Positions 25,062-60,298 of a DNA stretch of 64,000 nt are shown in pieces. Numbering within the stretch: the first letter of the stretch is position 1; each line of letters starts with the position of its first letter. The DNA is from Dictyobacter arantiisoli (GTDB lineage Bacteria; Chloroflexota; Ktedonobacteria; Ktedonobacterales; Ktedonobacteraceae), in contig NZ_BIXY01000011.1 in the NCBI RefSeq assembly GCF_008326305.1, forward strand, positions 1-64,000. Direction: 5' to 3'. The translations under genes were made by a program, and so were the position numbers. The notes beneath the pieces were generated by a model. The model made no database searches. It saw only the letters and a list, made by a program, of their open reading frames with translations, and was not told the DNA's origin.

Positions 25062-25409
25062 TATCAAAGTGTTTGATTCCCGGCTCTCTATCCTTCCGGG
25101 GGATTGAGAGGAGGGGGAGTTTGCGAGGACTGTCATGCCCCCGGCATGCCTGCCATCGCGCTCCGTCATGGGCTGCCGCCCCTGCACCCCTCTTTCACCC
25201 GCAAGGACGGAGAGCCTGATTCTCATGCTCTTCGCCATCCTGGCGCATGAGTTTTCGCACCAATGGTGCTCAAAACTGTTTTTATTGTGTGGTCCAGAAA
25301 AGTTCGGAGAACTTTTTCTGCACCACACAATAAAAAGGGCGCAGGCGCGCAGGCGCCTGCCAGCAGGTGAGCGGCAAGATCCCGCTGGGAGTGGGAATCA
25401 AACACTTTG
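25062..25409 (-). repeat. R1 dispersed palindromic repeat, copy b
   Basis: Bounded by inverted termini TCAAAGTGTTTGATTCCC (25064-25081) and GGGAATCAAACACTTTGT (25393-25410). It contains an internal hairpin with arms 25279-25292 and 25323-25336 around a second dyad AGTTCGGAGAACT. The right 190 bp match copy d in reverse orientation. A 150-bp GC-rich left extension with its own GGCTCTC/GAGAGCC dyad is unique to this copy. It abuts the GTATA target duplication of the transposon. Confidence 0.75.
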
Positions 25410-25431
25410 TATAGGCCCTTGAGTATTAATG

Positions 25432-25522
25432 GATACTGTTGCTAAATTCATTTGCCCGGCTGAGATCGATGAGGAAATATACACTCACGCTGAGCACAGA
25501 AAAACAATTTAGCAACAGTATC
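25432..25522 (+). mobile_element. 91-bp miniature element, copy 1, inside the left Tn3 repeat
   Basis: Terminal repeats GATACTGTTGCTAAATT and AATTTAGCAACAGTATC. Flanked by the 7-bp direct repeat ATTAATG at 25425-25431 and 25523-25529. All 91 bases are identical to copy 2 at 28594-28684. It encodes nothing. Confidence 0.85.
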
Positions 25523-25549
25523 ATTAATGGAACGAAAAACAACGCTAAG

Positions 25550-25968
25550 GAAATTGTTCTCTTCTGAAGGGTGAATAAGAATGGATGAGCATCTTTCATA
25601 GACTCTTTTGAATAAAAATCCTCGCTCTCCTCGCTCCATCGGACATTGTTCCACCTGGCGGTGGCTGTCGCCAAAGAACGGCGGGAAGCCGGCGATGCGA
25701 TGATCATCTAGATGGTGCCTGTTTGAGCCCAATTGCCAGGCATTCACCAAAAAGTTTCATGAGCCAGTATATATCGGCGCTAATACACCCACATGATGAG
25801 CGCTCTCTGCCTGCTCAAATCCTTGCGAGCGAAGTTCAATCACTTGTTGATAACGGTCATAGCGCTATAGAACCACAAAGGGCACTGCAGAGTTGCAGTG
25901 CCCTTTTCTAACATCATCATTTGCTGGCTATATGCTTGACAGCTTATTAGCGTAATGCTAAACGAAAA
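25550..25968. other. Left interior of the transposon, no supported gene
   Basis: A plus-strand frame ending near 25710 (peptide LFHLAVAVAKERREAGDAMI then stop) looks coding-like and could be the relic of a gene tail. A 62-codon frame at 25723-25911 lacks a recognisable domain. A terminator closes this segment at 25877-25906. Confidence 0.35.
25877..25906 (+). terminator. Intrinsic terminator
   Basis: 13-bp perfect arms AAAGGGCACTGCA and its complement with a GAGT loop, followed by TCTA. It lies downstream of the 296-residue gene and may also serve it. Confidence 0.7.
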
Positions 25969-26859
25969 TCAATTTCCTTCGATTATCTTAAATGCCATTG
26001 CAATCTGGTCTTGTGTGGACCTCGGAAGCACACGAATCTCAACCTCTTGACCAACTTCTAGTTCCTTATCAGGCTGATGTTCTATACCCTCAGGAATCGC
26101 TGCCATTTCCATACCATCGATATCGAGGATAACGAAAGGATCTAGAAATCTACTTATCTTACATTTTTTTGTATCTCCAGGTTGTAAACTGCGAAATTCT
26201 TTAAAGACCGCCTCTTGATTTTGAACAGAGAGTCGTGGGCTGTTCATGCGTTCCTGGTTTTGAGACACTTCTTGTCCGGCCGTGTTGATACTCTTTGGTC
26301 GGTGCGAAGGAAATTGTGAAGCAAGCTTTCGGGCAGCGTCCAACGTGTATGCAGTAAAAGACTCAGTGCTGATATCTCCATTCACAATCGACAAAACTAC
26401 CGAAGTAGGAGGGAAAACTTCTACCATCTCTTTTGAGTAATTCACCAGATGAATAGTAAGTGCATCAAGACTTGTATGGTACGGTTTGAGATCATTCCAC
26501 AGATTTGGCCATACAGTGTTCTGTTTCATTCCTATTTTTTCATCCCAACTTCCACGTTGATCTGATAAGAGAAGATATGCTTCCCACAGTTTTTCGAGAG
26601 CTTCTCTCATTTCAGATCCACTCATCCAAAGAGTTGCAGGGGATTGCCGTTGATCCTGGGATGTGACAACACGAGCAAACCACGCTCGCCAATTGTTGGT
26701 ATCTAACCCCTTTGCTCTCAGTGATCCGTTCCCTTCAGGATGAAGGTCAAAGGGAGGTATATGTATGCCGTCGATTTCTAATATCCAAATACAAAAATCG
26801 ATCGCCGCATTGAAACCACTCGAGTAGGTCCATGAAGGACCTGTACTTAAAGGATCCAT
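25969..26859 (-). CDS. Unknown protein with C-terminal S1/OB-like domain (transposon cargo)
   Basis: 296 residues. No family recognised for residues 1-190, which are acidic with several Trp and a central LWMSGSEMREALEKLWEAYLL helix. Residues about 225-296 resemble an S1/OB RNA-binding barrel (LQPGDTKKCKISRFLDPFVILDIDG then LEVGQEVEIRVLPRS). No signal or membrane segment. Start ATG 26859 follows AAGGAAGGTGAG. It lies inside the Tn3-type element, so it is likely mobile cargo. Function not known. Confidence 0.75.
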   Translation of the reverse strand: MDPLSTGPSWTYSSGFNAAIDFCIWILEIDGIHIPPFDLHPEGNGSLRAKGLDTNNWRAWFARVVTSQDQRQSPATLWMSGSEMREALEKLWEAYLLLSDQRGSWDEKIGMKQNTVWPNLWNDLKPYHTSLDALTIHLVNYSKEMVEVFPPTSVVLSIVNGDISTESFTAYTLDAARKLASQFPSHRPKSINTAGQEVSQNQERMNSPRLSVQNQEAVFKEFRSLQPGDTKKCKISRFLDPFVILDIDGMEMAAIPEGIEHQPDKELEVGQEVEIRVLPRSTQDQIAMAFKIIEGN

Positions 26860-27185
26860 AATGTGCTCTCACCTTCCTTTCAAAAAGAAGTGATCGCCTC
26901 ACTTCTGCATGGTTTTTTGAACTGGCGTTGATGATTTACGAACACTCCGCTCTGTTTTTAAGATCTTTTTTGAATCAGGTAGTAGCCTATATATCATCTG
27001 ATCATTAAACACGTCTTGCCTATCACTATTACCAAACACGTCTTGCCTATCATTATACCATATGACCACAGGCCATTGACGAATAGTATCAATTCGTCAA
27101 TGGCCTGTGGTCGGGATGTTCATGAAAGGGGTTTAATACTTGGCATAAAAATGTTAGTTCTCAGAAAAGAAGGAACGTGAGAAGT
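26860..27185. other. Cargo intergenic region with tandem 27-mers
   Basis: Two direct copies of a 27-bp unit beginning AAACACGTCTTGCCTATCA at 27007-27033 and 27034-27060 (few mismatches) precede a perfect hairpin. No gene seen. Confidence 0.6.
27064..27112 (-). terminator. 21-bp perfect hairpin, probable terminator
   Basis: Arms 27064-27084 and 27092-27112 (GACCACAGGCCATTGACGAAT and complement), 7-nt loop, 74 bp after the stop of the secreted-protein gene. No clear U-run, so termination is inferred from position and stem strength. Confidence 0.6.
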
Positions 27186-27788
27186 TTAGGCGTTAAAATT
27201 CGTGTTTGGATTGTTGAATGTACAAATAGTTCCACTCTTGAGGGTAACACCTCCGCTGAGCACTGCAGTAATACGCCCGCTTCCTGTAAGTACTTCTTGT
27301 CCATCGTTCCAAATTGATGATCCGAATGGAGATAGCGCTCCTGTAGTTAAACCTGGCCCTGCTAAACCGCCATACCAAGTAATGGTATACGCAACAGCGA
27401 TAATTCCACCTAGGGTTGATTTTCCTCCAACAGCAAAATTGGCAAAACCAAAGCCAGCACCACTGCCGTAAATGTACGAAGTTCCACAAGGCCCACCTAC
27501 TTGATTTTGTGGTAGTACACCATTAGTTCCTATCCTTGTTTGCGCAGGGCACTCATGGTTTTTTATTTCACGGGCTCTGACAGCTGCAGATCCTTTCGAA
27601 CAATCTACATACATGGTATATGTCACACCGTTTGAAAGTTTATCAGCTGTTTTAGCACTGTGTGCAGAGGCAATGCCGCTCCCAAAAGATGTGAATAGCG
27701 CAGATAAAAGCAGAAAACCGATCATTAGCTTCCCTAGTACTTGCTTAGTCCGCTTCCAGGCTGGATGTGCATTCTTAAAAGATTGCAT
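27186..27788 (-). CDS. Secreted protein of unknown function (transposon cargo)
   Basis: 200 residues. N-terminal signal peptide with a basic start, then LMIGFLLLSALFTSFGSGIASAHS and an AxA-like cleavage site near residue 43. The mature part has a few cysteines (VDCSKG, HECPAQ, GPCGTS, GTICTF) that could form two disulfides, and a Gly/Ser/Ala-rich beta-type centre (SGAGFGFANFAVGGKSTLGG). No family recognised. Start ATG 27788 follows AAAGGAG. It is divergent in composition from neighbouring chromosomal genes. Confidence 0.8.
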   Translation of the reverse strand: MQSFKNAHPAWKRTKQVLGKLMIGFLLLSALFTSFGSGIASAHSAKTADKLSNGVTYTMYVDCSKGSAAVRAREIKNHECPAQTRIGTNGVLPQNQVGGPCGTSYIYGSGAGFGFANFAVGGKSTLGGIIAVAYTITWYGGLAGPGLTTGALSPFGSSIWNDGQEVLTGSGRITAVLSGGVTLKSGTICTFNNPNTNFNA

Positions 27789-28140
27789 GTTTCTTACTCC
27801 TTTAGATTACTAAGGTATACATACGCCCTCTCTTGCATAATTACCTGAAGGTGCAAGAGATATTGGAAGCAAATTACGTTATGATGTATAGAAGTGAAGC
27901 AACATAGTTTTTACATTTATCAAACTTCTAAACGATTTAAAGCTTCCTTTTAATTTATAATGTATGTATTTATAAATGTCAATACATACACGCCTTTATT
28001 TTAAGAATTATCCAAGTAGAAACTCGATATGGCTTTTCTTGCTAGTATAAATGTTATGATTACTATTTGAGGCCGAATTAATAAATCGAGTAAAAAATGC
28101 TAGAAGCATACAAGCATTATTCAGAAAAAAGGTTGGAGTA
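27789..28140. other. AT-rich cargo gap upstream of the recombinase relic
   Basis: Very AT-rich (many TTTATAA runs near 27940-28010). No gene recognised. In Tn3-type elements the res site lies upstream of the resolvase, so this is where one would be, but no clear res subsites were made out. Confidence 0.3.
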
Positions 28141-28178
28141 AGCTTTTGAGTATAAATGAAGTGAAAAACAACGCTAAG
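28141..28178 (+). repeat. Internal, uninterrupted Tn3-type 38-bp inverted repeat
   Basis: The 38-mer starts AGCTTTTGAGTATAAATG and ends AACAACGCTAAG. It aligns over its full length with the two outer repeats once the 91-bp inserts are removed. It points toward the recombinase relic and pairs with the right outer repeat, giving a nested element 28141-28702. It is the empty-site version of the 91-bp insertion position. Confidence 0.72.
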
Positions 28179-28206
28179 GAAATCGTTCTCATAATATGGT
28201 ACAAAA

Positions 28207-28490
28207 ATGGCTGGCAGAATGCTCATAGACATTTTGTCAGCCAAATTAGAACGAGACTTGATTAGTCTCCGTACGAAAGAAGCGCTTGCTGCAAAAAAGC
28301 GGCAAGGTATAAGATTAGGAAAGCCGAAAGGTGCTATTCAAAAAGTAAGTTTGACAAAGATCGGGAGCGGATCAAAGAGTTACTCAAATTAGGGCTCTCC
28401 GTTCGCAAAATTGCCAAACTACTGGACTGTTCCAACCATCTTGCTCTCAATACTTATATCAATAAGCGCAAGCTCCGTGAGGAACTCTAG
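28207..28490 (+). pseudogene. Serine recombinase (resolvase/invertase) relic, truncated and frameshifted
   Basis: The frame from 28207 reads ERDLISLRTKEALAAKKRQGIRLGKPKGA, the E-helix tail typical of resolvases. After a one-base slip near 28345 the other frame continues DRERIKELLKLGLSVRKIAKLLDCS, the C-terminal helix-turn-helix, to a stop at 28488-28490. The N-terminal catalytic domain with the Ser nucleophile is missing, so it cannot be active. It lies between Tn3-type repeats, consistent with a tnpR relic. Confidence 0.8.
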
Positions 28491-28593
28491 CAATATGTCT
28501 CTGAATATGCTGATACTGCTGGAGTCTCACCAGAGCCAATTGTCGCATTCACAGAAGGGCAAATTCCTTAGCGTTGTTTTTCGTTCCATTAAT

Positions 28594-28684
28594 GATACTG
28601 TTGCTAAATTCATTTGCCCGGCTGAGATCGATGAGGAAATATACACTCACGCTGAGCACAGAAAAACAATTTAGCAACAGTATC
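28594..28684 (+). mobile_element. 91-bp miniature element, copy 2, inside the right Tn3 repeat
   Basis: Identical to copy 1 and flanked by CATTAAT on both sides (28587-28593 and 28685-28691), the reverse complement of the ATTAATG duplication at copy 1. Relative to its Tn3 repeat it has the opposite orientation to copy 1. Confidence 0.85.
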
Positions 28685-28707
28685 CATTAATACTCAAGGG
28701 CCGTATA

Positions 28708-28802
28708 CTCGACTTTGCACATTTTTGAAAACGTGAGCTCGAAAATGCGTCGCACTCGCCCTTTTTCGCAGGCTCAAAAGCCTAAAAATGTACAAAGTCG
28801 AG
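28708..28802 (+). mobile_element. CTCGACTTT-type MITE, copy 1
   Basis: 95 bp with 19-bp termini CTCGACTTTGCACATTTTT (28708-28726) and AAAAATGTACAAAGTCGAG (28784-28802). It contains GAGCTCGAAAATGCGTCGCA and GGCTCAAAAGCC. A second copy in reverse orientation is at 59996-60089. It abuts the transposon target duplication and, being palindromic, may terminate the esterase transcript. Confidence 0.8.
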
Positions 28803-59987: not shown

Positions 59988-59995
59988 CCTCTTAC

Positions 59996-60089
59996 CTCGA
60001 CTTTATACAATTTTAGGCTTTTGAGCCTGAGAAAAAGGGCGCGTGCGACGCATTTTCGAGCTCACATTTTCAAATTGTACAAAGTCGAG
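59996..60089 (-). mobile_element. CTCGACTTT-type MITE, copy 2
   Basis: 94 bp with ends CTCGACTTTATACAATTTT and ATTGTACAAAGTCGAG. Internal AGGCTTTTGAGCCT and TGCGACGCATTTTCGAGCTC match copy 1 (28708-28802) in reverse. It abuts R1 copy d. Confidence 0.8.
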
Positions 60090-60098
60090 CTAGAGAGG

Positions 60099-60298
60099 GT
60101 TTGATTCCCAATCCTATCGGGATCTTACAGTTCACCTGCTGGCAGGCGCTTGCGCGCCTGCGCACTTTTTAGTATATATTGTAGAAAAAGTTCTCCGAAC
60201 TTTTTCTACAATATATACTAAAAAGATGTTTGAGCACCATCGGTGCGAAAACTCATGTGCCAGGATGGCGAAGACCATAGGAATCAAACACTTTGTTA
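60099..60298 (+). repeat. R1 dispersed palindromic repeat, copy d
   Basis: Begins GTTTGATTCCCAATCC and ends GGAATCAAACACTTTGTTA. The internal hairpin has perfect 29-nt arms (60165-60193 and 60197-60225) and a 3-nt TCC loop. The flanks carry the conserved GGCAGGCG-CTGCGCGCCTG and GTGCGAAAACTCATGTGCC blocks. Confidence 0.78.

Follow-up and report, generated by a model that had tools for sequence, protein, structure and literature searches.

A probable TIME-COMP-like mosaic of the Tn3 family in Dictyobacter arantiisoli, with both terminal repeats split by an IS1182-type mini-element

The element, its ends and its contents

Studying 64,000 nucleotides of the Dictyobacter arantiisoli genome (contig NZ_BIXY01000011.1, positions 1 to 64,000, in the following called the window) reveals a non-autonomous derivative of a Tn3-family transposon at 25414-28702. 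It is delimited by two identical 38-bp inverted repeats (IRs) and a 5-bp target duplication, GTATA, present at 25409-25413 and at 28703-28707. Between its ends lie two cargo genes, a resolvase gene remnant and a third, degenerate IR, and each of the two outer IRs is interrupted by a 91-bp mini-element.

The left IR consists of an outer part of 18 bp (25414-25431, plus strand) and, behind the mini-element, a part made up of 7 duplicated bp and the inner 20 bp (25523-25549, plus strand). The right IR is built likewise on the minus strand, with the inner 20 bp and the duplicated 7 bp at 28567-28593 and the outer 18 bp at 28685-28702. When the halves are rejoined (25414-25431 with 25530-25549 and, on the other strand, 28567-28586 with 28685-28702), both ends give the same 38-mer GGCCCTTGAGTATTAATGGAACGAAAAACAACGCTAAG (38/38), which is identical to the Tn3 IR at 25 of 38 positions. 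The 22-bp core of this repeat has three matches in the window, while none is expected (100 shuffles). With at most one mismatch the core is found at five places in the 7.2-Mb genome of the organism, three of them within the element, compared to none in the control; the other two are a single IR on contig C17 and one on contig C139 which adjoins the 3' end of a resolvase gene. A search of the same genome for the Tn3 DDE family lists no transposase inside the element. IRs of about 38 bp which are of the Tn3 type and end with TAAG, a 5-bp duplication and the lack of an internal transposase gene are traits of the TIME family, and all of them are present. The GC content of the element is 41.6%, that of its surroundings 50-51%. 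The original prediction of a Tn3-type non-autonomous element with an intact duplication is thereby confirmed, and this includes the 38-bp ends, the GTATA repeat on both sides and the missing transposase.

The third IR, which was not part of that prediction, is located at 28141-28178 (plus strand), has 7 mismatches to the outer IR and has lost the tip GGCCC. Its inner flank aligns with the tnpA-side end of a transposon from another genome (L109 in G014, see below) with a score of 44, the maximum of 300 shuffles being 29; tnpA-side end sequence extends over about 70 bp at this IR, and the IR lies 5' of the tnpR remnant, which is the arrangement of a TIME. This remnant, the 3' part of a tnpR (serine resolvase) gene at 28207-28490 (plus strand), is frameshifted and lacks the catalytic half, and is what had been described as a dead recombinase. 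In two frames it matches residues 112-159 and 141-207 of the L109 TnpR with 61-67% amino acid identity. The sequence inside the right IR is similar to tnpR-side ends, with a score of 80 for L109 (shuffle maximum 33) and of 135 for C139 (36). Because a decayed tnpA-type end, a tnpR-side match, a tnpR remnant and the right IR, now with its 91-bp insert, are thus combined, the region 28141-28702 represents by itself a TIME, an older deletion product of 562 bp, or of 464 bp if the later insert and the duplication belonging to it are not counted. The role of left end has passed to the outer IR on that side, so that about 2.6 kb of other DNA are enclosed. A complete TIME of 204 bp with another IR subtype (GGYCCCCAAGTATTAACCATACGGGAAACAACGATAAG) exists elsewhere in the genome (L047:2774-2977, corresponding to C17:14773-14976), about 0.75 kb from a solo IR at C17:15719-15854.

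Both cargo genes are encoded on the minus strand, where a predicted secreted protein of 200 amino acids (27186-27788) precedes a protein of 296 amino acids (25969-26859). The former has an N-terminal hydrophobic segment and the conserved cysteines C63, C80, C101 and C189. A perfect 21-bp inverted repeat with a 7-bp loop (GACCACAGGCCATTGACGAAT) lies between the genes (27064-27112) and could be a terminator-like or regulatory hairpin. The larger protein had been labelled S1-like, which holds only weakly and only for the last third of the protein: this part has weak matches to ribosomal S1, the best family match covers residues 210-287 (E=0.04), and it is not confidently modelled, whereas the N-terminal 180 residues form another conserved domain (residues 10-183). 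Neither cargo protein reaches the threshold of a Pfam, NCBIfam or PADLOC family or has a sequence relative in the PDB. The structure models reach pLDDT values of 67 and 60, a low to middling confidence, and Foldseek finds no match for the 296-amino acid protein (best E=0.4). No known RNA was matched within the element.

The gene pair is present in the same order in two relatives, G017:C33 (L289:7271-9005) and G059:C14, and no Tn3-type IR was found near the cargo homologues in the loci examined. Therefore the pair appears to consist of captured host genes of a wider group. In these two relatives the unit comprises a secreted beta-rich protein with conserved cysteines and a cytoplasmic one whose N-terminal domain is conserved.

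Parental transposons and the insertion site

IRs nearly identical to those of the element (34-37/38) bound complete Tn3-family transposons with a TnpA of 942 to 1034 amino acids in other Ktedonobacterales. The element of G010 (L107:516-7705) has ends with 37/38 identical positions, the duplication GTTAA and a TnpA of 1034 amino acids. That of G025 (L108:520-11421) has ends with 34/38 identical positions and the duplication AATCC, and encodes TnpA, a resolvase and a kinase/TPR cargo. The element of G014 (L109:136-11012; ends 36/38) is without a clear duplication and encodes a TnpR of 207 amino acids adjoining the left IR and a TnpA of 1023 amino acids. Another IR lies next to a TnpA open reading frame in L112 (1134 amino acids as listed). 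The TnpA proteins of L107 and L109 match NF033527, "Tn3 family transposase", with E about 1e-297, and also PF01526. The cargo of these parental elements is varied and includes an esterase, kinase/TPR proteins and a histidine kinase. The supposed link between the 38-mer and a full Tn3 transposase is thus substantiated, and a wide occurrence of the 38-mer apart from Tn3-like ends is not what we found.

The element was inserted at the junction of two adjoining host mini-repeats, which is uninterrupted elsewhere in the same genome. On the left, outside the element, lies a host repeat (25065-25409) with the ends CAAAGTGTTTGATTCCC/GGGAATCAAACACTTTG, and on the right a host repeat of 95 bp (28708-28802; CTCGACTTTG...CAAAGTCGAG); these two form the sides of the empty site. 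A query joined from the left flank, one GTATA and the right flank aligns across the junction at many other loci of the genome. The empty site proposed in the original prediction can therefore be seen at paralogous loci, where the flanks (R1-type and CTCGACTTTG) are contiguous; in L008 (C13), for example, the junction reads CAAACACTTTGTATgCTCGACTTTG compared to the predicted CAAACACTTTGTATaCTCGACTTTG. There are dozens of copies of the mini-repeats of the GGGAATCAAACACTTTG type and of the 95-bp CTCGACTTTG type (window 59989-60286; loci L008-L035), and very often the two types adjoin directly, sometimes as tandem chains.

The mini-element and the IS1182 family

The first 91-bp copy (25432-25522, plus strand) is flanked by the 7-bp duplication ATTAATG at 25425-25431 and 25523-25529, the second (28594-28684, plus strand) by CATTAAT at 28587-28593 and 28685-28691. 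Both copies are 100% identical and in direct orientation in the genome, and so have opposite orientations relative to the IR. Each is inserted after base 18 of its IR and has perfect terminal repeats of 17 bp (GATACTGTTGCTAAATT), which are of the IS1182 type. As single-stranded DNA the mini-element is predicted to form a strong hairpin (z = -5.6).

The same IR position is occupied in three further cases: on C17 of the same genome (C17:15719-15854, duplication ATTAACG), in brp13 (G002, L143, duplication ACGAATG) and, as a 111-bp version, in Ktedonobacter sp. SOSP1-85 (G023, L185, duplication ATTGATG). In Dictyobacter vulcani (G001), Ktedonosporobacter rubrisoli (G008), K. racemifer (G025) and K. 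robiniae (G020) the mini-element lies against one or both IR halves, and further loci are C68 and L137-L149. We inspected all ends of the mini-element repeat found in Ktedonobacterales with 0-1 mismatch and some with 2. Of these 39 ends, 28 adjoin a Tn3-type IR half, 19 the outer and 9 the inner one (each p<1e-3 compared to random positions in the same loci). This test is not circular, because the loci were retrieved by the terminal repeat and not by the flank. An ordinary repeat without target preference is ruled out by these numbers. Likewise the mini-element is not a part of the Tn3 IR, since the 7-bp duplication follows the IR sequence of each locus. The duplications vary between loci and match at any one locus, which is most simply read as repeated separate insertion.

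The link to IS1182 comes from longer relatives. Contigs C6, C55 and C134 begin within a longer multi-copy element bearing the same terminal repeat. On C134 a transposase C-terminus of 35 amino acids precedes the repeat (translation read by eye and then confirmed), and C6 and C55 show a possible start, MSMSPHA (translation read by eye). Relatives of this C-terminus adjoin that repeat as well, in G002, G023 and G008 (L279-L281), and the G008 copy of the repeat is bordered on its other side by TGGAACGAAAAACG, the inner Tn3 IR. Those relatives that are full-length belong to the IS1182-family transposases (NF033551, E about 1e-98), and their elements have similar ends, GATACYGYTGGCGAA. The outer IR part on C134 ends with AACAACG and the inner IR part on C6 begins with AACAACG. 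This fits a single IS1182 copy within a Tn3-type IR, bordered by C134 and C6 and with the duplication AACAACG, although the joining would bridge a middle that is absent from the assembly. The ends of the 91-bp element resemble those of IS6 as well; an IS6-family origin was rejected in view of the IS1182 transposase C-termini adjoining the terminal repeat. Taken together, Tn3 ends appear to be the homing target of an IS1182 lineage and its mini-elements.

One could also assume that the mini-element targets palindromic AT-rich or stem-loop sites in general, and that Tn3 ends are merely the commonest site of this kind. IS1272, which belongs to the IS1182 family, replaces stem-loops (PMC5678879), and two copies do have inverted flanks, the one on C68 (CCCGCAGCG/CGCTGCGGG) and brp13 L137 (GAGTATTAACG/CGTTAATACTC). 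However, the duplications in full IRs are direct, the position in the IR is fixed though the flanking IR sequence varies, and other IS1182 copies in the relatives are inserted at AAAAAC, AAGTTT and AAAAGT, which are not palindromes. We therefore regard such a general structural preference as rather unlikely. In K. racemifer L186:8980-9090, and in part in brp13 L137, outer IR halves stand inverted on both sides of the mini-element; these forms could be solo recombination scars or the result of stem-loop replacement.

Origin of the element

We consider it highly probable that 25414-28702 is a TIME-COMP-like mosaic of the Tn3 family with a host gene pair as cargo, the ends of which were later split by IS1182-type mini-elements. 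The earlier reading as a Tn3-derived composite carrying genes is supported by our analysis, which adds three points: a composite history with an inner TIME and an outer IR, the derivation of the cargo from the host, and the nature of what is inserted in the IRs.

From these features we infer the following order of events. A full transposon of the structure IR-tnpR-cargo-tnpA-IR may have collapsed to a TIME, now 28141-28702, the inner tnpA-side end of which would then have decayed. A second functional IR of the tnpA type (25414) would have become the left end, and the enclosed host DNA with its chromosomal two-gene unit the cargo. A TnpA acting in trans could have moved the whole segment into the mini-repeat junction and thereby created GTATA. 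Later the 91-bp mini-element of the IS1182 family would have entered the two IRs in separate events, each time at base 18. Tn3 transposases recognise the entire 38-bp repeat, and therefore a split by 98 bp should block or strongly reduce transposition, so that the element in the window is probably immobilised. Recombination between the directly repeated inserts, which are 3.2 kb apart, could remove the element and would leave an outer half, one insert and an outer half in inverted arrangement.

A simpler origin would be an internally deleted Tn3 transposon with passenger DNA of its parent as cargo, the internal IR being due to chance or to a tandem duplication. Although the parental elements of this group do bear varied cargo, both the tnpA-side sequence at the internal IR, placed as in a TIME, and the lack of Tn3-type IRs near the cargo homologues speak against it, and we consider this origin unlikely. 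That the inserts predate the last transposition, with TnpA still recognising the interrupted IR (18 bp + 98 bp + 20 bp), which would move together with its insert as an extended end, is very improbable, since left and right insert are oppositely oriented relative to the IR and the locus-specific duplications (ATTAATG, ATTAACG, ACGAATG, ATTGATG) point to separate insertions into already diverged IRs, even if single IR-plus-insert units at C17:15719-15854, in brp13 and in Ktedonosporobacter look as if they could spread as a unit.

Some observations weigh against the TIME-COMP-like mosaic. In TIME-COMP two TIME copies flank the captured DNA; here a complete TIME lies on the right (28141-28702), while the left side shows only the IR and a weak match of the flank beyond it to the flank of the internal IR (score 33, shuffle maximum 32). 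A TnpA of the same clade is absent from the assembly of the organism (256 contigs), which contains only distant fragments that are 26-40% identical to the parental TnpA; no helper TnpA was thus found in this assembly, and candidate helpers are found in the relatives only. The empty site, contiguous at paralogous loci, was not found as an ortholog in four genomes of the same genus, where the flanking genes are only partly conserved and the locus is neither conserved nor syntenic. Finally, a complete IS1182 element with exactly these ends was not recovered, both ends being located at contig breaks (C134, C6, C55).

Comparison with known systems

TIME and TIME-COMP elements of Pseudomonas and Enterobacteriaceae mobilise host genes although they encode no transposase themselves (PMC4133298, PMC13367494). 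The element in the window shares with TIME-COMP the 38-bp Tn3-type IRs, the 5-bp duplications, the lack of a transposase and the mosaic of host genes and resolvase sequence, and its size of 3.1 kb without the inserts is comparable to the 2.5-3.9 kb of TIME-COMP1/2. It differs in that the right side alone is a complete TIME whereas the left has, besides its IR, little TIME sequence, and also in the Tn3 subgroup, in the host, a member of the Chloroflexota, and in the interruption of both IRs. With the transposons L107, L108 and L109 it shares the IRs (34-37/38 identical) and a tnpR remnant of the same family as the L109 TnpR, but these encode a TnpA of 942 to 1034 amino acids and other cargo. 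The host element is thus TIME-COMP-like and of a known kind, and the IS1182-type plug in both IRs is the newer part. The same TIME process would operate in Chloroflexota, where the parent, the collapsed intermediate and the cargo-bearing product can all be identified.

For the plug, a search restricted to the open-access literature found no description of IS1182-family insertion into Tn3 IRs. IS1272 replaces stem-loops without a duplication (PMC5678879); the transposase family, a structure-linked choice of target and some copies with inverted flanks are shared with our mini-element, while the copies in full Tn3 IRs have direct 7-bp duplications. Stem-loop replacement of the IS1272 type is ruled out for the copies in the window by these duplications, inverted flanks of this sort being confined to C68 and L137. 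IS4321 and IS5075, of the IS1111 group of IS110, insert in IRs of the Tn21 family, a "safe harbour" according to the account of Partridge and Hall (2003) given in PMC8269217. Like these, the mini-element is repeatedly inserted at one position within the 38-bp IR of Tn3-superfamily transposons. Unlike them, it is linked to an unrelated enzyme family (IS1182), has terminal IRs and a 7-bp duplication and occurs mostly as non-autonomous copies of 91-111 bp. Membership in the IS110/IS1111 group, with its DEDD transposase and subterminal repeats, is ruled out by the terminal IRs, the direct 7-bp duplication and the IS1182-type transposase neighbours.

We see even chances that in Ktedonobacterales base 18 of Tn3 IRs has become the sequence-specific homing target of an IS1182 lineage, and that the non-autonomous copies of 91-111 bp of this lineage systematically plug the ends and thereby brake Tn3 transposition. 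If so, recombination between direct-orientation copies at both ends could remove the transposon, and a solo scar would remain, similar to long terminal repeats. This raises the question whether Tn3-family transposons are switched off by such insertions, and whether these spread because the site is free of cost to the host. The mini-element points to a DDE-type insertion sequence family converging on the niche of IS4321/IS5075, which would represent a second, unrelated route to their life in transposon ends.

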